From Candidatus Scalindua sp. (lineage in GTDB: Bacteria > Planctomycetota > Brocadiia > Brocadiales > Scalinduaceae): DNA of 64,000 nucleotides. Each line of letters opens with the position of its first letter. The first letter of the stretch is position 1. The stretch spans positions 46,611 to 110,610 of the forward strand of contig JABHIW010000066.1 in the NCBI GenBank assembly GCA_018670825.1, read 5' to 3'. This document shows positions 12,988 to 43,335 of the stretch, piece after piece. The notes under the pieces were generated by a model. That model did not search any database. It saw nothing but the letters and a program-made list of their open reading frames with translations, and was not told where the DNA came from. The position numbers were made by a program, and so were the translations under genes.

Positions 12988-14259
12988 ATGAATCAGACAC
13001 TTATAATTCGATGTATCATAAGTAAAAAATATCAATTAATGTGCATTGTTTTGTCTCTGTTCAGCATACTGTTCCTCACAACTGATTGCCAGAGCCAGCA
13101 AGCAGGAGAAACCGGATATGAAGCACCGGGTATCTTAAGAGCAAGCGAGATACTGCCACCAGAACTCCTTGAAGGAGAACATTATAAAGTAATGGAGGAG
13201 GTTGCTACCTATGACCTTACCAACCATTTCACCATCTCGACTGCTTTTGGACAATTTGAGGTGATTGGTGAGGATATGCTGCAAATACGTATTCAAGAGA
13301 TTCTCGCCATAGTAGCTTTGCAGGAGGTAAAGAAGACGAAAGGCTTCCGCGATGCTGCGGAACAAGCAGCCATGAGCCCACTCAAAGGAGCACGTAATCT
13401 TATTGTCCATCCGGTTGATACCGTTACCGGAATTCCAAGGGGAGTCGGTAGACTTTTTGCGCCAGAAGATGATATGTTTATGGATAATGTTGAGTATAGA
13501 GTAACTGAGGAAATGGCCGGTTTTTTCAAGCTGAAACTACAGCATGCACACATTTTGGGAGTGAACGTATACACAACTAACAAGATACTTCAAAGGGAGC
13601 TGAACGGGGTTACATGGGCAAAATTTGCAAGCGGGATGCGTGTTAAATTTAATATGGAGATATTTAGAAGTATTTACAATGCCGCATTCTTTACGGTTAA
13701 TGATACTGAGTTTACACAAAATATGGACCAGATGATACTTGACAACACACCTGAAAATCTTGCAACACTAAATCGTAAGAAATTGAAGCAGATGGGAACG
13801 AGAGAAGAGATAGTGGAAAAATTTCTTAACCATTCAATTCTTACCCCACGCCATCAAACAGTTATCGTGCACGCCCTTGCGGAAATGAGGCAGGCAAAGA
13901 ACCGGAGATGTTTTATCGAACAGGCTAATTATTCAGCATATGAGGAAGACGCCTTCTTCTTCCAGCGAATTGCCGAAATGATGTTAGACTATCATAAAAA
14001 TGTGGAATCAATAGTAGAGATAATTCCTGCTCGGAGGGCTGTTGTCGGTTATACTGCCCAAAAGTCAATTGTTGCGACGATGCCGATAGATTATGTTTAC
14101 TGGGCAGAACGGGCTGATAAGGGAGTAGATGCTCTCCTACATTTAAAATCACAAGGTCGACTTGTCAAAAGCGTGAAGTTGATTATCACAGGCAGAGTGA
14201 CTCCAAGGGTTAAACGCGAACTTATGGAGAGAGGCATTATAGTAAAAGAGAACAGGTAA
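12988..14259 (+). CDS. Hypothetical exported protein, paralogue family A (copy 1)
   Basis: Signal sequence with Cys; shares PPELLEGE(H/N)Y, LQRELN.V.WA.FA.G, PRH(Q/E)T..VHAL with the 14378 and 41986 proteins. Confidence 0.75.
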   Translation: MNQTLIIRCIISKKYQLMCIVLSLFSILFLTTDCQSQQAGETGYEAPGILRASEILPPELLEGEHYKVMEEVATYDLTNHFTISTAFGQFEVIGEDMLQIRIQEILAIVALQEVKKTKGFRDAAEQAAMSPLKGARNLIVHPVDTVTGIPRGVGRLFAPEDDMFMDNVEYRVTEEMAGFFKLKLQHAHILGVNVYTTNKILQRELNGVTWAKFASGMRVKFNMEIFRSIYNAAFFTVNDTEFTQNMDQMILDNTPENLATLNRKKLKQMGTREEIVEKFLNHSILTPRHQTVIVHALAEMRQAKNRRCFIEQANYSAYEEDAFFFQRIAEMMLDYHKNVESIVEIIPARRAVVGYTAQKSIVATMPIDYVYWAERADKGVDALLHLKSQGRLVKSVKLIITGRVTPRVKRELMERGIIVKENR

Positions 14260-14377: not shown

Positions 14378-15748
14378 ATGAACCAGACATTTACAATTCG
14401 ATGTATAATAAGCAAAAGATGTCAATTAATGTGCATTGTTTTGTCTCTGTTTAGTTTGCTTTCCCTCACTACCGGTTGCCTGAGCCAACAGGCAGCAACA
14501 AAAACTACTGATAATTCAAAAAAACAGGCACTTTCTGCTGAAACAGCAGCAGGAACTGTAGGGTACGAAACACCGGAGATTTTAAAGGCAAGTGAGATAT
14601 TACCACCAGAGCTGATCGAAGGTGAGAATTATAATGTAAACGAAGATATTTTGACATACGGTTTTACCAACTACTACACAATTATGTCACCGGTCGGTAT
14701 ATTTGAAGCCGAGGGTGATGACATGTTACGAATCCGGATTCATGAGATTAAGGCTATAGGAGCCTTACATGATATTAAAAAATCAAAGGCCTTCGGCGAA
14801 GCAGCACAAAAGGCTGCTACGAGTTCTGTCAAGGGAGCCTTGAGCCTGATTTCACATCCTGTTAATACGGTATCCGGAGTGCCAAAAGGTATTGGTAAGC
14901 TTTTTTCGAGAGTTAGTGAAATGGCAAAGGGTGCGCGCGGTGACTCGGAGGAAAGCGTGGCAAAAGAGCTGATTGGTTTTTCAGCAGTAAAACGGCAGTA
15001 TGCATACAAAATGGGAGTGGACGTTTACTCATCTAACGAAGTGCTTCAGCGTGAGCTGAATAGTGTATCGTGGGCAGGTTTTGCTGGTGGAGTAGGTATA
15101 TCACTTGCTACGAGGGCCGTTAAAGGCGCTTCGAAATTAGCATACTTCTCAATCAAGGGTACAAAATTTATCTATGGAATGAACAAAATTCTGCTCGACA
15201 ATGCCCCTGAAGATCTCAGACGCATAAACCGTGAAAAGCTGCTTCAAATGGGGATAAAAAATACGGTCATTGAAGAATTTCTGCGCAATCCAAATTTCTC
15301 ACCTCGCCACGAAACTATCCTGGTACACGCTCTGTCAAAAATGGAGGGAGTCAGGAATCGTGATAAATTTATAAGACAGGCGCTCTTCGCAGAGTCTGAG
15401 TTAGATGCATTGGTTTTCCAGCAGATTGCGGAAATGTTGTACGGATACCATACACAAGTTGGACCAATAAGTGAAATTATACCGTTGCGTCGTATAGCGG
15501 TGGGTTATACGGCAGATCAGGCGGTAGTAATAGCGCTTCCGACGGACTATATATACTGGACAGAGCGTACCTCCCTTGGCTTAGGGGCCGTTACTCAATT
15601 ACAATCCACTGAGCGCACGGTCAAGCGAACGGAATTATGGCTAACCGGAAGATTAACTCCGAGAGCCAGGAAAGAAATTGAAGAGACAGGAGTGATCGTT
15701 AATGAACGAATAGGCGAACGCTTAATGCCACCATCAACGCAAGAATAA
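14378..15748 (+). CDS. Hypothetical lipoprotein/exported protein, paralogue family A (copy 2)
   Basis: Tandem paralogue of 12988..14259; lipobox-like LTTGC. Confidence 0.78.
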   Translation: MNQTFTIRCIISKRCQLMCIVLSLFSLLSLTTGCLSQQAATKTTDNSKKQALSAETAAGTVGYETPEILKASEILPPELIEGENYNVNEDILTYGFTNYYTIMSPVGIFEAEGDDMLRIRIHEIKAIGALHDIKKSKAFGEAAQKAATSSVKGALSLISHPVNTVSGVPKGIGKLFSRVSEMAKGARGDSEESVAKELIGFSAVKRQYAYKMGVDVYSSNEVLQRELNSVSWAGFAGGVGISLATRAVKGASKLAYFSIKGTKFIYGMNKILLDNAPEDLRRINREKLLQMGIKNTVIEEFLRNPNFSPRHETILVHALSKMEGVRNRDKFIRQALFAESELDALVFQQIAEMLYGYHTQVGPISEIIPLRRIAVGYTADQAVVIALPTDYIYWTERTSLGLGAVTQLQSTERTVKRTELWLTGRLTPRARKEIEETGVIVNERIGERLMPPSTQE

Positions 15749-15923: not shown

Positions 15924-16616
15924 GTGTACATGGTAAAGAAGATTTACAATTCGTTAACTCAGGTCTGCTTCAAGGATAGATTCCTCTTCCTCCTTATCTC
16001 CATATTGTGTTTGTTACTACTCACTCCTATCTTCAAAGGCTTTATCGGAATTCGTATTTTGATGGACGCATTCATCACTGCGATATTGATATTTGGAACC
16101 TACGCTGCTAGCAGGAAAATCTATATTACTATTACCGCTGCATCACTTGCCCTACCGATGCTCGTGTCAATCTGGATAAGCCATTTTGTAGATATCCCTT
16201 TTCTGGTTTTCATGGGAGATTGCTTTGGGATAATATTTTTAGCTTTTCTCGTAATCGTTATACTGTCATTCATATTCGGTGAACTTGAAGTTACCACCAA
16301 TGTTATCTACGCATCAATTGTTGTTTATCTGCTCATCGCCATAATGTGGGCATTCGTATATTCAGTTTTGGAGAGTATCCAACCGGGATCTTTTACCATA
16401 GGAGAAGGTCAAATCGACGTCGGAAGACGACTTTATATTTACTACAGTTTTGTCACTATCACAACATTAGGTTACGGAGATATCACCCCTACAACTGACC
16501 TGGCAAATTCCTTCTCATTTCTTGAAGCGGTCACCGGTCAGCTTTATCTCGCCATACTGATAGCGAGACTGGTCGGTATACAGATCGCTCAATCAATGAA
16601 CAGGAAGGCAGGTTAG
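15924..16616 (+). CDS. Two-pore-type potassium channel family protein (Ion_trans_2)
   Basis: Multiple TM helices and K+ selectivity filter TITTLGYGDITP followed by a final TM. Confidence 0.85.
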   Translation: MYMVKKIYNSLTQVCFKDRFLFLLISILCLLLLTPIFKGFIGIRILMDAFITAILIFGTYAASRKIYITITAASLALPMLVSIWISHFVDIPFLVFMGDCFGIIFLAFLVIVILSFIFGELEVTTNVIYASIVVYLLIAIMWAFVYSVLESIQPGSFTIGEGQIDVGRRLYIYYSFVTITTLGYGDITPTTDLANSFSFLEAVTGQLYLAILIARLVGIQIAQSMNRKAG

Positions 16617-16691: not shown

Positions 16692-17231
16692 CTATTTTAC
16701 CGGCGGAAAATTGCTGAGAACGTTCCTTACTACCTCGTTTATTCTCTCATTCCGTTTTACAGGGTTCGAATAATTGCGTACCTCTCCCTGTGCGATACCT
16801 CTCCAGATTAATTCCCTTGACTGAGCATCAACAAAATCAAGAACAAATGTTCCCTCCTCATACTGATATACATCATATTGTGTGGTTGCCGCGTAGGAAC
16901 CTCCATGCAGCATCGCACGTCCACCATATGAATAGTTCCATGCTCTAACATCCATTTTTTCTTCCTTTGCCACATGCATCGATATCAGAAAATCAGGGCT
17001 ATCGGTCGTCATCTTACAACCTTTGGTTTCTAATTGGGCGTTCACTGCCTTTTGTATTCGTTTTACATTCAAAGTATGAATATTTTCCTGAACAGATACA
17101 GACATCCAGTTAAATGTTTTCAGGTCAGTATAATTAGTTTCCGGATCATAGTCATACTGATATGAAACCGTGGAACATCCAAAAGCTACAACCATCAGGC
17201 TTGAAATAATTAGTAAGCGTATTGACTTCAT
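16692..17231 (-). CDS. DUF4136-like lipoprotein
   Basis: Start set at MKSIRLLIISSLMVVAFGCST (cat at 17229-17231); YDPETNYTDLKTFNW..., ...IWRGIAQGE. Confidence 0.75.
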   Translation of the reverse strand: MKSIRLLIISSLMVVAFGCSTVSYQYDYDPETNYTDLKTFNWMSVSVQENIHTLNVKRIQKAVNAQLETKGCKMTTDSPDFLISMHVAKEEKMDVRAWNYSYGGRAMLHGGSYAATTQYDVYQYEEGTFVLDFVDAQSRELIWRGIAQGEVRNYSNPVKRNERINEVVRNVLSNFPPVK

Positions 17232-17410
17232 AAATGCCTCCCCTGAAAATATAAATATATGAAAGTATAAAATTGATAGTATCGGCATCTGCATTAAAGC
17301 AGACGGCTCCCTGTAGTACACGGTCGAGTACCACTTCGCCAACCCTTGTCATAACCATACAGATAAAACCACTCACTCATGAATGAGCTAAAACCTACCA
17401 TATCTACATT

Positions 17411-19702
17411 TTAGTGGAAAAAATATAGATATATCATAAATAATCCACCAGCATATAAGACGGGATAGCACCACACGAAGTATTTATCGATCTTATGACC
17501 CAAGTCTTTCTTACCGCGTGTCTCCAACCGTTTCAGTCCCACGTTATATGCGACTGTCAAAGCAGTAACCGCAAAGCCGAGGATAAGAAAGGCATCCATG
17601 AAGGTTAAATACCCCAGCCGGGGTAGAGCAGAAGCAATGGTAAAATTGAAGGCAACGAATACCAGGAGATTACCCCCTGAAACGTCTATGCGTTTAGCAT
17701 AGTCCCCCAGAAAGAAGGTAACCCAGGACACCATAACTATCAGAAGCAAGGGAACAATAATGCGGAAAACAAAATAGCTTAGATGGCGTTTTGCTACAAA
17801 ACGAAAAGAATACATAGACTTAAATTCATCAAACTCAAGACTGCTGATCTGTGCTTCAAGGTTGGTAATATACCATTCCACCTCTCCCAGCTTTTGGCCT
17901 ACTTTGGTAAGTTCCGTGTCTACTGTATATACATATAACTCTTGCGCTTCGAGGCAAACGATACGGATAAAGAATTGCTGAGGGTCAAATGGAATCTTGG
18001 CAAAATTAAAATCCGGGGCCTGCAAGGTCACAGCGAATCGCTCAAAATATTTTATTTTTCCGTTAGGAAAAACGTGAAAGACAGCTTCCTGTGAAAAACG
18101 TTTCCCCTGTTGATTATAAAAGATAAAGCGTGGCCACAGTAACCCATTTTCTTTGACAAATTTATCGAATTGGGAAGGCTCGAATACCTTTTTACCGCAC
18201 TTGCAGGTATCCGGGCTGAAGGCAAAGGAGGGGTCTATCCATTCCATAAAAAGGTTTCCCACCACGTTAAAGTTTTGCGCTTTCTGGCTGATACTAGTGA
18301 TCTGGTCCAATTGGATGGCCGTTCGGACCTTAATGGGCTCTCTAACGATAGAACGTCCCCAGGGCCTGGCTTTCCCCTGTAATACCTCGGGCGCATCTAT
18401 TCCGACCAGGAGGCGAAAATCGCCAGTAGTCTCAGTGCTATCTTTACCGACACCTTCCAGATGAAGTACATAGTTGCGATCTCCTTTTTCGAAAGTGTAT
18501 TGTAACTGTGCAGATTTTGTTTCCTCAGAAAAGGTATCAGCCCAGACAACCTTCTTTCCAAAATCACGTAGCTTCAGTGAAGGTTTCAGCTTACCAGAGG
18601 TTGCTTCCACGAAAGCATGGAGGGTCTCCCCAGGATCAAGTTGAACCAGGGGGAAGAAGGTATGGTCCTTTTCAGGTGCAAGGGTGGCGGTGACTTCCTG
18701 CACCCGATGACGAAAATCCACATTTACACTGGCGAACTTGTTGCCTGTTGGAGTAGCCTTACCGGTTAATACATCTGAGGCATTTACGCCTATGGTAAGG
18801 CGGTAGCGCCCGAAGGATCTATTAGCGTCTTGCTCTAGAGTCGATAAGTGGGTCCTCCCACCTATAACCAGTTTGTAGTCGTTGTCAGCCGGAATGGGAA
18901 ATACCAGAGCGGTGTCGTACCCTGTGCCTCCGTCGTCATTCCAGGCAAAGAAAAATTCATCTAAAAGCTCAGAAATGAATGAAGAAATATCCACTTTTGT
19001 CTTCAAGGCTTGACGTCCTCTATCTTCGCCAACTTTTTCAAAGCGCGCGGCATCGAAAGCACCACCTGCTATACCAGTGAACGGGTCCAGGTTACCAGAA
19101 ATCCTTTCCACATAAACATAGAACATCTCCCCCTCTTTGAGATTCGGGAGGTTGTAAACGTGAAATTCATTGCGCTTCAGATATTTTGTAATCACTTGAA
19201 CCTGGCGATCTGCATGTGTACCTTCTCCTGGTTCACCCTGACTCTCCTGAGTTATTTCTCTGGTACCAGTCGTCAACTCGATAGTTGTTTTGTCCGGCCC
19301 AGAAACATCTTTTTTCTCACTATCCTCTGATAATTTTATCTCTTCCTTTTTGGTAGCAGGTGGAAGGGAAAGTTGAATTGTTTCTTTCGGCTCAGAAACA
19401 TCTTTTTCCCCACTATCCTCTGATAATTTTATCTCTTCCTTTTTGGTAGCAGGTGGAAGGGAAAGTTGAATTGTTTCTTTCGGCTCAGAAACATCTTTTT
19501 CCCCACTATCCTCTGATAATTTTATCTCTTCCTTCTTGGTGGCAGGTGGAAGGGAAAGTTGAATTGTTTTCTTGCCGGTTTTATCGTCCCCTTTAGTGAC
19601 CATAGCGAAACTAAAACAGATAGTCCCAATACAGATGAGTGTGATAAACAACTTACGAAACATTAGCATGTTTACGGCTTTTTCTATCCACATGATAATC
19701 AA
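17411..19702 (-). CDS. Multidomain pentameric ligand-gated ion channel (Cys-loop-receptor superfamily, prokaryotic type)
   Basis: ECD: LLWPRFIFYNQQG, FPNGKIKYFERFAVTLQAPDFNFAKIPFDPQQFFIRI; M1 SYFVFRIIVPLLLIVMVSWVTFFLG; M2/M2-M3 FVAFNFTIASALPRLGYLTFMDAFL; C-terminal M4; large N-terminal extension. Confidence 0.88.
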   Translation of the reverse strand: MIIMWIEKAVNMLMFRKLFITLICIGTICFSFAMVTKGDDKTGKKTIQLSLPPATKKEEIKLSEDSGEKDVSEPKETIQLSLPPATKKEEIKLSEDSGEKDVSEPKETIQLSLPPATKKEEIKLSEDSEKKDVSGPDKTTIELTTGTREITQESQGEPGEGTHADRQVQVITKYLKRNEFHVYNLPNLKEGEMFYVYVERISGNLDPFTGIAGGAFDAARFEKVGEDRGRQALKTKVDISSFISELLDEFFFAWNDDGGTGYDTALVFPIPADNDYKLVIGGRTHLSTLEQDANRSFGRYRLTIGVNASDVLTGKATPTGNKFASVNVDFRHRVQEVTATLAPEKDHTFFPLVQLDPGETLHAFVEATSGKLKPSLKLRDFGKKVVWADTFSEETKSAQLQYTFEKGDRNYVLHLEGVGKDSTETTGDFRLLVGIDAPEVLQGKARPWGRSIVREPIKVRTAIQLDQITSISQKAQNFNVVGNLFMEWIDPSFAFSPDTCKCGKKVFEPSQFDKFVKENGLLWPRFIFYNQQGKRFSQEAVFHVFPNGKIKYFERFAVTLQAPDFNFAKIPFDPQQFFIRIVCLEAQELYVYTVDTELTKVGQKLGEVEWYITNLEAQISSLEFDEFKSMYSFRFVAKRHLSYFVFRIIVPLLLIVMVSWVTFFLGDYAKRIDVSGGNLLVFVAFNFTIASALPRLGYLTFMDAFLILGFAVTALTVAYNVGLKRLETRGKKDLGHKIDKYFVWCYPVLYAGGLFMIYLYFFH
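19295..19573 (-). repeat. 3 x 93-bp in-frame tandem repeat (31 aa: K(E/K)TIQLSLPPATKKEEIKLSEDSGEKDVSEP)
   Basis: Read directly; three near-identical copies in the ion-channel gene. Confidence 0.95.
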
Positions 19703-20066
19703 GTCTCCCCCGTCTTATTTTCAAAAATTGAACTATGATTTTACTCATCCACTTACCACCCAGAGCATTTATAGGGATCTTCAAATCTAATATTTATCTC
19801 ACTATCCGGAATCTAGCACAATAGACTCTTATTGTCTAATAATTTAATAGACTGTCTAATATTTGTTAAAAGTATTTTAAGAACCTATGAATTAACAGAA
19901 CCTGGCAAACAATTTGTTCGTTACACAATGCAAGAAGTTGTGCCCTTAAATTACTATTCGAAAAGAAAAACCTCATGCAGAATGTCTCATGATATTTGTT
20001 GTTGAAGAAAGAAGCGGGAGAAGCCGTTTGTGCAGAATCAGTTGTCAGCGTTCTTATTGGAAAATA

Positions 20067-20852
20067 TCAGAAACGGATAGATATACCCGTTCCAATAAAA
20101 TTGTCTGTTTCGCTATCCAGGCCTACACCGGCATTGATGTCCAGTTGAATATCGTCTGTCAACAGATAAGTCACCCCACCATTAATCGTATTTTGTACAC
20201 TACTCGATCCTGGCTCACTTGACCCTCCTGTATGAAGTGGAATGTCGCTATTATATTCCAAATATGTCCCCAGTCGGCTGGTGTGGCAGAAAGAGACGCC
20301 AACAATAGGTTGAATACTGTAATTTCTATCTCCTTTCGTTACGTCAGAATTCGCTAGTACGTTGCCAAATATAGACACATTATTTGATAATGAATAATCC
20401 CAAAGCAAGCCAAGTTGTGGATCAACATGCCCTGAAGTAGAAGGACTACTTCCTACCGGAAAAGATAACAGGCCCAGCGCAGTAAGATTAAATTTATCAT
20501 CTTCAATGATCCTATATTTCCCACCAACAGAAGCATCAGCAACAGATGTTTCCGGATTACTGTCTTCCTGATCGTCAATATTCCAGCCATCCCATAAGAG
20601 ATCAAATTCAATTTTTTTGGTTATGCCTACGCGCAAATTCGAGAGAGGAGTAGTGTGGGTAGAGGTGTCCGTATTATGGTTATTGAATGAATACTGGTAG
20701 CCAAATTCTATATTAAGCCTGCCTGGTTTAACGGTGTATGCACCCGTGCTGAATCCAGGACGATCGGGGACAATTGGATTTGTCTGAGCATCCACAGTGA
20801 CTTGAAAAGCAACAAGTACAAACAGGAAAAACGAAAAATATAAATTTGCCAA
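20067..20852 (-). CDS. Outer-membrane transporter-like protein (MetA-pathway-like)
   Basis: Signal peptide, IVPDRPGFSTGAYTVKPGRLNIEFGYQY..., terminal aromatic (GTGISIRF). Confidence 0.7.
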   Translation of the reverse strand: MANLYFSFFLFVLVAFQVTVDAQTNPIVPDRPGFSTGAYTVKPGRLNIEFGYQYSFNNHNTDTSTHTTPLSNLRVGITKKIEFDLLWDGWNIDDQEDSNPETSVADASVGGKYRIIEDDKFNLTALGLLSFPVGSSPSTSGHVDPQLGLLWDYSLSNNVSIFGNVLANSDVTKGDRNYSIQPIVGVSFCHTSRLGTYLEYNSDIPLHTGGSSEPGSSSVQNTINGGVTYLLTDDIQLDINAGVGLDSETDNFIGTGISIRF

Positions 20853-20936
20853 TGATACACCCCTTATATACTACGAAAAGTTAAGCGGTAATAGCTGGAA
20901 AAATAGCTATTAGATTTTCTATGCCTGTTATTGGCT

Positions 20937-22262
20937 TCAATCTGACTTAGATGTTGATTCGTTTTGAACCCTTTCAATTATCTCCTTTGTCTCTTTTGAG
21001 CGAAAATCCCAAATGAAGAATTTAATATTGTCCATGGCAACCGGTTCTTCCGGGAAAAGTATCACTGCACGACGCCCGTCCGTCCAATACGGATCTCCGA
21101 GGATAATTTCACGGGGTTCTTCAGGCGTGGCAGCGCCAACACCATTAACCATACCCAGCTTAGCCAGGCCCTGTACAGACATGACGTCCATTATCATATA
21201 GTCACGAGCGTCGTCCACTTCCGGGTCAACCGCGTGAGTTGTAAGGCTCCATACACCGGTTGTCATCCGAATACCTATATCGCGGCTTATTTGTCCGATC
21301 CAGACAGATTTGTCCCGGAAGATCCATGGAGCAAGCCAGAGGCGCATATGGTTACGCTCATTAACAGAATCTCGCCCCTTCTGGAGAGCAATATCTTGAG
21401 CCCTGCCGAATACATATTGTGGACTGATCGGGGCGTTGAGGTACATATCTCCCTTAAAGAACGCCTTTGCCATCTTTAACCCGGTAGAAAGCGTGACTGC
21501 TTCTGTTTCGTCCCAACCAGCACGAGCAAGGGCGCCGAATATCAAATCCGGCTTCCCGATAAGGACAAGATTAAGAGGATCACCGTCTTTGGTATCCTTC
21601 TCGTTTCGTGCACAGCATTGAAAATCAGAGAGTTTTGCGCGGAAATTCTCCTCTTTATCGAATTTAATGAAATCCTCCGGTTGATATAGATCATCAAAAT
21701 TTACGCGCATATGGTCTGCCTTAATACCAGGTACGGATATGTAGAAAACAACTGTTCTTACTTGCTTCGGCCCAAACAGGACAACAGGTACTACCTTGGT
21801 GCCCAAACCGAGGTTTGTATAGACAAAACCTGACTTTGTTTCCCCCGGATTGATGAGCATGTCAATGGCCAAATTCCTGTAATCTTCTTCCATATGCTTA
21901 TTTTTGTCAGTATCCGACACCCTGTTAATATATGCCGTTTCCATGGAAGAAAAGTATTTTGGGTCAATCGCCATGACGATAAGGGCAAACGGGGTATCTT
22001 CGTTATTTATTATCTCCAGCCATACGGGCTGGATCCCCTTCTTTGCGAGCGGCCTGCCGAATATCTGTTTGCTCTCTTTGGGTGATAGCACCGATGCCGT
22101 CACCGTCAACTTGCCAACGTTCTTAGTCTGTGAGCGTTGATGAAAATTTACTTTATCAATAGGTATCGGATTATATGTTCCGCAGGCAGAAACCAGGACA
22201 AGCGTCATAACAGCCGTCAGACTTTGTATTATATTTTTTATTTGTACAAACTTCATTGTCAT
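20937..22262 (-). CDS. LssY C-terminal-domain lipoprotein (tandem copy 2)
   Basis: LNLVLIGKPDLIFGALARAGWDE...YVFGRAQDIALQKGRDSVNERNHMRLWLAPW...VWIGQISRDIG; start overlaps the upstream gene stop by 4 nt. Confidence 0.8.
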   Translation of the reverse strand: MTMKFVQIKNIIQSLTAVMTLVLVSACGTYNPIPIDKVNFHQRSQTKNVGKLTVTASVLSPKESKQIFGRPLAKKGIQPVWLEIINNEDTPFALIVMAIDPKYFSSMETAYINRVSDTDKNKHMEEDYRNLAIDMLINPGETKSGFVYTNLGLGTKVVPVVLFGPKQVRTVVFYISVPGIKADHMRVNFDDLYQPEDFIKFDKEENFRAKLSDFQCCARNEKDTKDGDPLNLVLIGKPDLIFGALARAGWDETEAVTLSTGLKMAKAFFKGDMYLNAPISPQYVFGRAQDIALQKGRDSVNERNHMRLWLAPWIFRDKSVWIGQISRDIGIRMTTGVWSLTTHAVDPEVDDARDYMIMDVMSVQGLAKLGMVNGVGAATPEEPREIILGDPYWTDGRRAVILFPEEPVAMDNIKFFIWDFRSKETKEIIERVQNESTSKSD

Positions 22263-23572
22263 TCTTCTCTATCTGTATTTTTCTGTTTCAGATTTTGTAT
22301 TGCAATTTTCACACTTTTGGCAAAATCCCAATTAAAAAAATCAATCTCGTTCATAGCTATCCGATCATCTGAAAAGAGCAGTACTGCACGTTTACCTTCC
22401 GTCCAGTACGGGTTGCCTGACAGTGTTTTACCAGGGTTTTCCGGTGTGCATTTATCAATGCCTTTGACAACCCCAAATTTGTCCAGTCCCTGTACCATCA
22501 TAACGTCCATAAAAAGATAATAATAAGCATTGTCTATATCTGGGTCAATTTTGTTCGCAAAGTTCAATGATTTACTTTTTCGTTTAATGCCAATATCGCG
22601 GCTGATATTACCAATCCATACGCTCTTACCTTTGAATATCCATGGGGCAAGCCAGAGGTTCAGGCGGTTACGATTATGTAAGCTGCCACGCCCTTTATGT
22701 AGTAATATATCCTGTTCACGACCGAAGAGATATTGCGGTGCGGCTGGAACACTTAGCGGCAAATTACCCGAAAAGAATGCCTCTGCCGTTTTGAGCGCGG
22801 TTGAAAACTCGAAAGCTCCGGGCACATCCCAGCCAGCCCTGGCGAGTGTATCATGTATCACATTGCGATTACCAATTAATACAACATTGAGAGGTAAATT
22901 ATCGTTAACATCACTTTCGTCACGCGTACAGCATTGGAAACCGGAAAGCTTTGTGCGAAATGTTTCCTCTTCTTCGTACATAATGAATTGATCCTGCTTA
23001 TAAAGATTGTCAACGTCAATACTTTCATCATCGGCTTTAAAGCCGGCAACTGGGATGTAGAAAACAACTGACCTGACCTGCTGCGGCCCGAACAGGACAA
23101 CAGGAACTACCTTGGTACCGAGATCGAACCGCGCAAATACAAAGCCTGACATTGTACCCCCCGGAGGTATGCGGATATCAATGGCCAGTTTCCTGTAATC
23201 ATCAGCAATTCGCTTGTTTGTGCTTTTGCCGGCTACCCTGTGCATGTATGCCACTTCGGATGCGGAAAAGTATGTTGGATCGAGTGACCGGGAGATGAGG
23301 GCGTATGGTAAATCTTCACCATTTTTTATCTCCAGCCAGACCGGCTGGATTCCCTTCTTTGCCAGAGGCCTGCCGAAGATTTGTTCACTCTCCTTGTGTG
23401 ATAAAACTGCCGCTGTTACCGTTACCCCTCCAATTGTCTTAGTCTGTGAGCGTTGGAGAAAAGGTACATTGTCTATCGAAGTTGGATTGTATGTCTTGCA
23501 GGCAGGAAGCCACACTATCAATAACATCAGCAGTAAAAATACTGCAAGAAATCGAACTTTTTTTGTTATCAT
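22259..23572 (-). CDS. LssY C-terminal-domain lipoprotein (tandem copy 1)
   Basis: Same motifs as 20937..22262; lipobox WLPAC. Confidence 0.8.
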   Translation of the reverse strand: MITKKVRFLAVFLLLMLLIVWLPACKTYNPTSIDNVPFLQRSQTKTIGGVTVTAAVLSHKESEQIFGRPLAKKGIQPVWLEIKNGEDLPYALISRSLDPTYFSASEVAYMHRVAGKSTNKRIADDYRKLAIDIRIPPGGTMSGFVFARFDLGTKVVPVVLFGPQQVRSVVFYIPVAGFKADDESIDVDNLYKQDQFIMYEEEETFRTKLSGFQCCTRDESDVNDNLPLNVVLIGNRNVIHDTLARAGWDVPGAFEFSTALKTAEAFFSGNLPLSVPAAPQYLFGREQDILLHKGRGSLHNRNRLNLWLAPWIFKGKSVWIGNISRDIGIKRKSKSLNFANKIDPDIDNAYYYLFMDVMMVQGLDKFGVVKGIDKCTPENPGKTLSGNPYWTEGKRAVLLFSDDRIAMNEIDFFNWDFAKSVKIAIQNLKQKNTDREE

Positions 23573-25093: not shown

Positions 25094-27562
25094 TTGAAGT
25101 GTTGTTTTTGGAGTAGCATCATATTTATGTTCTTATGCTCAGGTGTTCTTTCTGCTCAGACAATAGAACTACCTAAACCACAAGCAGATATCGAGCAGAA
25201 GGTTTCTGAACCGGAAAAATCGGTTGCAATACCGATTACGAAAATATCAGACCGCGCACAGGAGACCTATATCGTCTTAAATAAAATAGACGCTGATCTT
25301 GAGATCAATACCGAAATTCAAACGATAAATAAACAGTTGCCGTTATTTCTATCGTCCACCAACAGAGAGCGCTCCAGTTGGATTTATCAATCACTTAACA
25401 GCCTTTCCACTCGTAAACTTCAGAAGCTCCATCATGATTGGAACATGCAACTGAATAAACTCGAAACATGGAAAGAACCACTTTTAGAAAGATCTGAAAT
25501 TCTAGAGAAAGATAGCAGGCAAATTGAAGAGATGGTAGAGCTCTGGAAGATTACCGGAGAGTCAGCCGTAACCAGTGAAGCACCAGAAATAATTCAGGAA
25601 CGTACCAAATCGACACTTGACCAAATCAGACAGACAGAAACAAAAATCATAGAACAGATCAGGGTATTGTTAACATTCAAAGATCAAATATCAGAACAAG
25701 AACTTGAAATCACTAAACTGATCGGTCTGATACAAAACGCTGAGGCACATTCACGTACACGGCTCTTTGTGTATAATAGCCCCCCATTATGGAAAGCGAC
25801 TCAAGTAGTAGTGGGTATACCAGGCGTTGGTAGTCAAATTTTTGAATCCTGGACATACTTCCTCAAGATGAATAAAGAATATTTCAATACAGATAGAGGG
25901 CGCTGTGTCCTGCACATAATTATTTTTACTGCGTTCCTGGCAATAATGATATATTTTTCTCTACGTAACAGACGTAAGCGGCTATTTGAAGAGACGGATA
26001 AGGACTTGAAGGCCTCCGCTTTTTTTATCTCATGTCCTTTCTCCACTGCACTTCTGATTTCCGTTTTTTTTGGTGCCATGATACATATCAATAGGCCCAC
26101 TGCATTTGGTGAATTAATAACGCTGTTGGTACTGTTTCCGATTCTAAGATTGGTACCAGGTATTTTTTCATCTGAACTGAAGAAACCCATTTACTTCCTG
26201 ACTGGTCTGTGTTTCCTTAATATTACCGGGTCTATTGTCGGTGATTATATACTGGTACAAAGGTTATTGGTATTTCTTATATCAATCCTGATAATTCCCA
26301 TAGTCGCATGGTGGCTCAGACCAAATAGCCAGATTTATAAGATAAAATCACGCTTAGCGTTTAGACTGACCATAATTTTTAGTTCCTTAGTATTATTTAT
26401 TTCGTTGGTTTCTCTGGTGACAAACCTGATCGGAATTTCTTATCTGGGATATGTATTGACGTATGGAATGATGAATATCCTCTATAATACATTCGGCATA
26501 TATGTAATAGCTTTGGTACTTGAAGGATTTGTTGTGCTGCTTATAAGAAGACGCGGTGCTCAGTCTTTGCATATTGTAAAGAGTTTTTCAAAGAAAATGG
26601 AACGACGTATTATTTTGTTTATTCATCTTTATGCAATTTTTTTCTGGTTACGCATGATTTTCAGCACTTTTGGAGTGTCCCAATACGTATGGGATTGGAT
26701 TTTACAAATTACGGAATATAGTTGGACATTGGGCACGATAGAGATTGCAGTGGGTGCTATTTTCAGTTTTATCATCATCCTGATAATTACTATATTCATG
26801 TCACGTCTGGTACGGACTTTTCTGGAAGTAGAAATATTCACACGTCTTCGACTTCCCAGAGGAGTTCCGGGTGCAATATCAATGTTAGTTCGATACGCAA
26901 TTATTGGAATAGGTTCCTTCCTGGCTATTTCCGCAATCGGCATAGACCTGTCACGGTTCGGTCTCCTGGCAGGAGCGATGGGTGTAGGGCTTGGTTTCGG
27001 CCTGAGAAATATAATAGAAAACTTTGTTTCAGGCTTAATAATTATCTTTGAACGGCCCATCGAACTAAATGATACCGTGGTGGTAGGAGATGTAATAGGC
27101 AATGTATCAAGAATTGGCATACGTTCCAGCACTGTAAAGACGTTCGACGGATCTGAAGTAATCGTTCCTAATGCAAATTTAATCACCAATCAAGTTACCA
27201 ACTGGACTATGTCTGACCGTCAACGAAGAATACAACTGCCGGTGAAAGTAGCATTTGGAAACGACCCGCACAAGGTGTTGGAATTACTGCATAAAGTTGC
27301 CAGGGATCATCCCGGCGTGATGGAGTTTCCTAAACCACAGGCGTTCTTTAACGGATTTGGTGACAACTATCTTGATTTTACACTTTATTATTGGGTATCA
27401 GATAATATACTACAAACCAAGAGTGAGATGGCATTAGGGGTTCATGATACGATAAAAAATGCCGGCATTGATACACCGAGATCAAAGGGAGACTTCAATC
27501 TGAAAATCATCGATACACCTGACAAACTACAAAATAAAGATAAGGGTGATAAGTATAACTAA
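25094..27562 (+). CDS. Mechanosensitive ion channel protein (MscS/MscK type)
   Basis: Signal peptide, coiled-coil periplasmic region, many TMs, then GLLAGAMGVGLGFGLRNIIENFVSGLIIIFERPIELNDTVVVGDVIGNVSRIGIRSSTVKTFDGSEVIVPNANLI. Confidence 0.92.
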   Translation: MKCCFWSSIIFMFLCSGVLSAQTIELPKPQADIEQKVSEPEKSVAIPITKISDRAQETYIVLNKIDADLEINTEIQTINKQLPLFLSSTNRERSSWIYQSLNSLSTRKLQKLHHDWNMQLNKLETWKEPLLERSEILEKDSRQIEEMVELWKITGESAVTSEAPEIIQERTKSTLDQIRQTETKIIEQIRVLLTFKDQISEQELEITKLIGLIQNAEAHSRTRLFVYNSPPLWKATQVVVGIPGVGSQIFESWTYFLKMNKEYFNTDRGRCVLHIIIFTAFLAIMIYFSLRNRRKRLFEETDKDLKASAFFISCPFSTALLISVFFGAMIHINRPTAFGELITLLVLFPILRLVPGIFSSELKKPIYFLTGLCFLNITGSIVGDYILVQRLLVFLISILIIPIVAWWLRPNSQIYKIKSRLAFRLTIIFSSLVLFISLVSLVTNLIGISYLGYVLTYGMMNILYNTFGIYVIALVLEGFVVLLIRRRGAQSLHIVKSFSKKMERRIILFIHLYAIFFWLRMIFSTFGVSQYVWDWILQITEYSWTLGTIEIAVGAIFSFIIILIITIFMSRLVRTFLEVEIFTRLRLPRGVPGAISMLVRYAIIGIGSFLAISAIGIDLSRFGLLAGAMGVGLGFGLRNIIENFVSGLIIIFERPIELNDTVVVGDVIGNVSRIGIRSSTVKTFDGSEVIVPNANLITNQVTNWTMSDRQRRIQLPVKVAFGNDPHKVLELLHKVARDHPGVMEFPKPQAFFNGFGDNYLDFTLYYWVSDNILQTKSEMALGVHDTIKNAGIDTPRSKGDFNLKIIDTPDKLQNKDKGDKYN

Positions 27563-41985: not shown

Positions 41986-43335
41986 GTGAAAGATAAAAGA
42001 AAGGGGAACATTATGAACAAAGACGTTGGATTGCACTTAAGTCGATGCGTTTCTATTAAAAGTATTACAATGTGCATGGTACTAACTATTTGTAGCTTAC
42101 TGTCTAATACGGATTACTGCAGAGGTCAGGCAACTGACCAGCCGGTAGAATATGAAACACCCGGGGTTTTAGATGCGTATGATATCTTACCACCAAATCT
42201 ACTCGAAGGTAAGAATTTTTGGGTGGACAGAAGGGTAGTATCGTATGGCCTAAACAACCGTTACACAATTTCTTCCCATTTTGGCAAGTTTGAGGCAAAT
42301 GGTGAAGAGATGCTGCGCATACGTGAGCATGAAATCAAGGCTATAGAGTCCTTGAGAGAGATAAAAAAGTCGAAAGCGTTTGGTGATGCAGTCAAAAAAG
42401 CGGTTAAGAGCCCGATCAAAGGAGCTAAGGCCCTGATCACCGATCCTGTTAGCACAGTCAAGGGAGTACCGAAGGGTATAGGAAAGCTCTTTTCACGTAT
42501 TGGTGAGATGACGAAGGGTGGGCGTGGAGATTCGGAAGATAGTTACACAAAGGAGCTTATCGGTTTCTCTGCAACAAAGCGCCAGTATGCAAACAAATTT
42601 GGAGTGGATGTCTATTCCTCAAACGAAGTGCTTCAAAAGGAACTGAACAGTGTTGCGTGGGCAGGATTCGCCGGTGGTGTTGGGGTGAAACTGGCGATGA
42701 TGCCTATTAAGGGCGCCTCCGAAGCAGCATATTACTCAATACAGGCTACGAAATTAACCCATGGCATGAACATGATATTACTCGACAAAGCACCTGAGGA
42801 CCTTCGGCAGATAAATAGAGAAAAGCTGATACAAATGGGAGTGAAAGAGTCTGTTATCTATGAATTCCTGCACCATCCCGCGTACTCGCCTCGTCATGAG
42901 ACGATATTGGTCCATGCACTGGCAGATATGCAAGGGGTAAAGAATCGTGAACAGTTCATTAAAAAAGCCCTCTATGCGGAGTACGAGGAAGAGGCATTTC
43001 TTTACCAACGTATGGCCGAGATGTTGCATGGATACCATACACAGGTAAAACCGATTAAAGAGCTGGTCCCTGTTCGTAAATTCATGGTGGGTTACACATC
43101 TGATCAAACCATTGTTGCTACTTTCCCAATTGATCTTCTCTACTGGATAGAACTCTCTGATCTTGGTTCAGCTGCTTTAGCTAAATTAGATTTAACAGGT
43201 CGTCCTGTAAAGAAAACAGAAATATGGGTTACCGGTTCTCTTACACCCAGAGCAATGCAGGAATTCAACGCCAGAGGCCTGGTAGTTAACGAGCGATCAG
43301 GTGAAGTATTATTGCCACCATCAAAGAACAACTAG
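41986..43335 (+). CDS. Hypothetical exported protein, paralogue family A (copy 3)
   Basis: Closely similar to 14378..15748 (KRQYA.K.GVDVYSSNEVLQ.ELNSV.WAGFAGGVG); likely start at internal ATG 42013 (MNKDVGLHL). Confidence 0.75.
   Translation: MKDKRKGNIMNKDVGLHLSRCVSIKSITMCMVLTICSLLSNTDYCRGQATDQPVEYETPGVLDAYDILPPNLLEGKNFWVDRRVVSYGLNNRYTISSHFGKFEANGEEMLRIREHEIKAIESLREIKKSKAFGDAVKKAVKSPIKGAKALITDPVSTVKGVPKGIGKLFSRIGEMTKGGRGDSEDSYTKELIGFSATKRQYANKFGVDVYSSNEVLQKELNSVAWAGFAGGVGVKLAMMPIKGASEAAYYSIQATKLTHGMNMILLDKAPEDLRQINREKLIQMGVKESVIYEFLHHPAYSPRHETILVHALADMQGVKNREQFIKKALYAEYEEEAFLYQRMAEMLHGYHTQVKPIKELVPVRKFMVGYTSDQTIVATFPIDLLYWIELSDLGSAALAKLDLTGRPVKKTEIWVTGSLTPRAMQEFNARGLVVNERSGEVLLPPSKNN

Follow-up and report, generated by a model that had tools for sequence, protein, structure and literature searches.

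Altered calcium ligands at the ECD-TMD interface of a DeCLIC-type pentameric ligand-gated ion channel from an anammox-order bacterium

Results

A channel gene in a three-gene segment

The window, a stretch of 64,000 nucleotides, lies within a 4.45-Mb assembly of 178 contigs. On its minus strand, an intact frame of 763 codons (17411-19702) opens with a TTG codon. The likelier start is the ATG at 19693, which is preceded by GGGGGAG about 11 bases ahead and gives a protein of 760 amino acids; its frame, Pfam and phmmer matches, structural model and Foldseek matches identify the gene (17411-19693, minus strand) as a DeCLIC-type pentameric ligand-gated ion channel (pLGIC). Directly upstream is a gene for a Phenol_MetA_deg outer-membrane-type beta-barrel (20067-20852, minus strand), and directly downstream one for a DUF4136 lipoprotein (16692-17231, minus strand), both assigned by Pfam. 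Barrel, channel and lipoprotein genes, all on the minus strand, make up a segment of about 4.2 kb (16695-20913), delimited by comparison with a second genome of the same genus (G008).

The original prediction held that the C-terminal half is a pLGIC, and the searches bear this out. Neur_chan_LBD (PF02931) matches above its cut-off (E 1.2e-10, 41.7 bits, cut-off 26), and Neur_chan_memb (PF02932) falls just below its cut-off of 28.1 in hmmscan (E 1.6e-5, 25.8 bits) and passes it in the genome search (28.8 bits). Against PDB sequences, the best phmmer match is DeCLIC (E 1.7e-130, residues 165-762), the channel of a Desulfofustis deltaproteobacterium (PDB 6v4a, 6v4s, 7q3g, 9ev1, 9fth), followed by sTeLIC (2.8e-81, residues 451-762) and then GLIC and ELIC. 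A Pro-loop Pro and Asp together with a pre-M1 Arg have been described as a trait of Pro-loop receptors (PMC4795631); P571, D573 and R639 are present here and invariant in our alignment.

For the domain layout we relied on an AlphaFold2 model of the monomer, made with 16 homologues as input and of moderate confidence (mean pLDDT 74). It comprises a signal helix, a disordered linker (residues 32-162, pLDDT < 50), two beta lobes, an extracellular domain (ECD) beta-sandwich and the four transmembrane helices of Pro-loop receptors (M1 641-664, M2 668-690, M3 699-728, M4 732-762). The two outcomes that had been named as speaking against the pLGIC assignment, lack of a match to the transmembrane domain (TMD) and a model lacking the ECD sandwich with its four-helix bundle, did not arise. 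In a Foldseek search with the model, 20 DeCLIC chains rank top, with a TM-score of about 0.7 by target length, and sTeLIC and GLIC rank below.

Along the gene, all on the minus strand, the N-terminal hydrophobic helix or signal peptide (residues 4-34, 19601-19693; helix 2-34 in the model) is followed, beyond the linker, by a first jelly-roll lobe, NTD1 (residues 167-313, 18764-19204; phmmer, model and hhalign), and a second, NTD2 (residues 328-446, 18365-18721; model and hhalign). The canonical ECD spans residues 452-640 (17783-18349; Pfam, alignment and model) and includes the Pro-loop P571-F572-D573, and the TMD (residues 641-763, 17414-17782; alignment and model) carries D673 at 2', L680 at 9' and F687 at 16'. 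NTD1 and NTD2 are homologous by hhalign (99.7%, E 1e-25; ECD and TMD controls 0.2-1.4%), and by this sequence comparison the two lobes are true duplicates. The large duplicated periplasmic extension that had been proposed is thus present, although about 450 residues precede the ECD rather than 400.

Two homologous jelly-roll lobes ahead of the ECD, the mark of the DeCLIC type, are supported here by phmmer, model, Foldseek and hhalign together, and the likeness to DeCLIC-type channels pointed out in the original prediction holds. The channel is a full-length homologue of DeCLIC, with which it shares the order NTD1-NTD2-ECD-TMD at 38% identity, as well as the N-terminal Ca2+ ligands, a CxC pair, the Pro-loop and the pore gates. 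Its two-lobed architecture is already known, having been solved in several DeCLIC structures. sTeLIC, from a Tevnia symbiont (PDB 6fl9), resembles the window channel in ECD and TMD (44% identity over about 310 residues) and in the M2 sequence KRID..GGNLL, but has no N-terminal domain and no CxC, and keeps the EEE motif in loop F. The proton-gated GLIC of Gloeobacter shares the ECD-TMD fold at about 23% identity, again without the N-terminal domain. The Ca2+-binding jelly-roll domains of Tk-SP and Clostridium collagenase are structural homologues of the DeCLIC lobes (PMC12664993), but they are accessory domains of proteases; a named Pfam domain was sought in the lobes, and the only match was a weak one to PPC (E 0.045) in 1 of 16 members.

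The repeat linker and the CxC pair

The roughly 130 residues between the signal peptide and NTD1 form a low-complexity linker, whose repeats the original prediction did not mention. It carries three tandem copies of TIQLSLPPATKKEEIKLSEDSGEKDVSEPKE, each of 31 residues or 93 bp and 97% identical (19295-19569, minus strand; sequence, alignment and pLDDT < 50 in the model). In DeCLIC and the other aligned full-length relatives the repeats are absent, and the lobe almost adjoins the signal peptide. The linker may be a recently expanded, disordered tether in the periplasm.

C500-x-C502 (18197-18205, minus strand; alignment), which had been picked out as a CxC pair in the ECD and a possible metal or redox site, proves to be a signature of the NTD-bearing members: it is found in 26 of the 28 NTD-bearing rows that have the column versus none of the 13 NTD-less rows. 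In the two exceptions (L023 and L024) both cysteines are missing together, as would be expected if the pair formed a disulphide or bound one metal between them. The DeCLIC literature that we searched does not contain the word cysteine. The same two relatives have altered residues at the second N-terminal Ca2+ site (YEGRY and FEGHF).

Distribution and gain of the segment

The channel is the sole member of its kind within its own genome. Searching with the full-length protein, we found no homologue among the 16 further genomes of its family, and a survey of 391 other genomes across the phylum turned up no full-length NTD-bearing form. PF02932 matches in the same genus and family (L002-L004) were set aside: they are weak and lie in short frames, and the full-length search finds nothing there. 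A first contig scan with the channel protein alone as query gave no match. Profile and pattern searches yielded 30 further NTD-bearing rows, fragments included, and 13 NTD-less rows, mostly sTeLIC-like. The NTD-bearing rows are mostly from Chloroflexota, the sampled group in which this architecture is most frequent; the others come from Methanophagales archaea, the cyanobacterium Xenococcus, Nitrospiraceae (Nitrospirota), Chromatiaceae and Desulfofustis, the last being DeCLIC itself (L021).

Two Methanophagales channels (L014 and L017) are full-length DeCLIC-type proteins that share about 41% identity with the window channel and retain the acidic Ca2+ ligands of either site. In one Chloroflexota genome, NTD-bearing pLGIC genes stand in tandem (L090, 371-2329 and 1951-3279). 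A gene from the same phylum (L055, 229-2178) joins a pLGIC TMD to another N-terminal partner than that of the window channel, namely a periplasmic binding domain of the NMT1_3 family (TAXI-type, E 4e-55). Conserved operon partners were sought by all-against-all comparison of flanking genes, and none was widely shared. In 5 of the 27 loci compared, a gene for an MscS-type mechanosensitive channel is found in the vicinity of a pLGIC gene (window 25094-27562; L018 6288-7601, directly upstream of the pLGIC gene; L026 2371-3540; L027; L028 3-2657), possibly by chance, and two of the five are closely related. The window also holds three paralogous secreted or lipoprotein-like genes with an ILPPxLLEGE motif (12988-14259, 14378-15748 and 41986-43335), the first of which has no Pfam family in a scan without weak matches.

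The hydrazine synthase alpha domain occurs in 30 of 39 genomes of the host order and in 15 of its 16 genera, which places the host in the anammox order. The domain has no match in the window's own assembly, although it was found in 8 of the 10 other genomes of the genus that were searched; we ascribe this to incompleteness of the assembly.

In two genomes of the same genus (G008 and G010) the three-gene segment is absent, and both flanks, a K+ channel gene (window 15924-16616) and an LssY_C pair (20937-23572), are kept at 79-87% protein identity and adjoin each other. About 59 bp stand in place of window 16695-20913 in G008. No homologue of the DUF4136 lipoprotein was found in the 16 other family genomes, and barrel homologues occur in only three of them, at 28-31% identity. 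Gain of the segment in this lineage is a simpler account than repeated loss. The channel lies on a long branch whose placement in the tree does not settle, and we name no donor. Mobile carriage was considered and dropped, as plasmid, phage and viral collections gave no match; direct repeats of at least 8 bp were not found at the segment edges.

Retained and lost calcium ligands

The closed state of DeCLIC is stabilised by Ca2+ bound in two places, the N-terminal lobe and the interface between ECD and TMD. The ion in NTD1 is bound by D76, P77, D123, D124 and Y129, with a looser site at D124, G126 and G128; at the ECD-TMD interface it is bound by E347 and the carbonyls of P434, F436 and L477, with a looser site at E480, Q476 and G478 (PMC12664993). 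The carboxylates of E347 and E480 lie <3 A from the interface ion, which in the X-ray structure is held by E347 with E479 (PMC9897478). We mapped the window channel onto the ligands published in these two papers.

All seven DeCLIC residues of the NTD1 site are identical in the window channel. D206-P207 (19082-19087) correspond to D76-P77 of Site 1, and D256-D257-G-G259-T-G261-Y262 (18917-18937) supply the remainder of Sites 1 and 2 (minus strand, by alignment). The ECD-TMD sites differ. Q476, encoded by CAA (18275-18277), replaces the Ca2+ ligand E347, and V608, encoded by GTG (17879-17881), replaces the loop-F ligand E480 (both minus strand, by alignment); DeCLIC Q476 in turn is K604. The interface site with E347 and E480 that belongs to the DeCLIC type is therefore not present in that form, which weakens the claim of DeCLIC-like Ca2+ gating and leaves family kinship unaffected.

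Both replaced columns are otherwise uniform, with E in 43 of 43 other homologues that have the column at E347 and E or D in 43 of 43 at E480. As to the sample, one search pattern spans loop F but admits both E and V where DeCLIC has E480; the set from Chloroflexota came by profile, and some rows are closely related to one another. Six columns are acidic in all other rows, and exactly the E347 and E480 positions are lost here. Among 21 columns invariant elsewhere, the window channel differs only at E347Q and at the conservative Y518F, so that the change at the interface appears local rather than a general decay. Q476 and V608 are known from a single MAG. That position 21' is not acidic here (A692) was examined as a second oddity and discarded, A, N or T being present in several relatives.

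These data bear on whether the channel could be an acquired gene in decay, without function. Its sporadic presence (only this genome among 17 of the family), the loss of two invariant acids and the recent expansion of the linker repeats would all fit such a gene. However, the open frame is full-length at 763 codons, the other hallmarks (Pro-loop, pre-M1 Arg, 9' Leu and CxC) are all kept, and only 2 of 21 invariant columns are changed, and we consider decay very unlikely.

Discussion

We think it probable that the window gene encodes a DeCLIC-type cation channel in which Ca2+ acts wholly or for the most part by way of the N-terminal domain and Q476 favours the open state. The predicted pentamer would enclose a cation-conducting pore, sit in a membrane that faces the periplasm and be gated at the 9' Leu and 16' Phe. 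In each subunit, a long disordered repeat tether would follow the signal peptide and lead to two stacked jelly-roll lobes and a canonical ECD. Since both gates and the 2' acid are kept, DeCLIC-like cation conduction is to be expected.

On the simplest view, the loss of the acidic ECD-TMD ligands (E347Q and E480V) would affect gating in two ways. First, closure by Ca2+ at the interface may be weak or absent, and the retained N-terminal ligands would then leave Ca2+ to act mainly or solely through the lobes. Second, a neutral Q476 may bias the channel to opening, as would GLIC E35Q or a protonated E347. The Q476 column is that of the GLIC proton sensor E35, which is intact in GLIC itself; the two were matched by a shared motif (KAEtF and KAQnF), with the GLIC fragment verified against PDB. 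In GLIC, E35Q gives higher proton sensitivity and a gain of function, and neutralisation of E35 stabilises the active state (PMC5760087). An open structure of DeCLIC was obtained at pH 5 despite the presence of Ca2+ (title of 9fth), which fits a neutral residue at 347 promoting opening.

Alternatively, Ca2+ may control the channel just as in DeCLIC, through interface binding by E607, E609 and backbone carbonyls, with Q476 as a neutral oxygen ligand. The window channel keeps P563, F565, L605, G606, E607 and E609 (the last two being DeCLIC E479 and E481), and the DeCLIC X-ray structure offers alternative coordination by E479, so that weak binding at the interface could persist. Yet both cryo-EM carboxylate positions are lost jointly, in columns that are acidic in the 43 other homologues, and we regard fully DeCLIC-like control as unlikely.

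We also consider it unlikely that the channel serves chiefly to sense an organic ligand, held either by the lobes of the N-terminal domain or in the orthosteric pocket, with a purely structural role for Ca2+ in the lobes. Jelly-roll domains related to these lobes serve in regulation or binding, two of them holding Ca2+ (PMC12664993), and sTeLIC has been solved with an amine (title of 9ewa), but the DeCLIC literature searched names no agonist besides Ca2+ depletion.

Returning to control by Ca2+ through the N-terminal domain, it is conceivable, and we offer this tentatively, that such control has moved wholly to that domain or has been uncoupled from the pore, and that the neutral residue at the E35/E347 position yields an open-prone pore. 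If true, this would make the channel a natural case in which the two Ca2+ sites of DeCLIC have been separated.

In DeCLIC, a gating role for Ca2+ in the N-terminal domain is hard to part from a role in steadying the domain, because both sites occur together. With its N-terminal ligands kept and its ECD-TMD side-chain ligands lost, the window channel, compared with DeCLIC, could part these roles, and its host extends the DeCLIC-type channels to the anammox order. Rather than in its architecture, the value of the channel lies in a natural change of Ca2+ site and in the distribution mapped around it.
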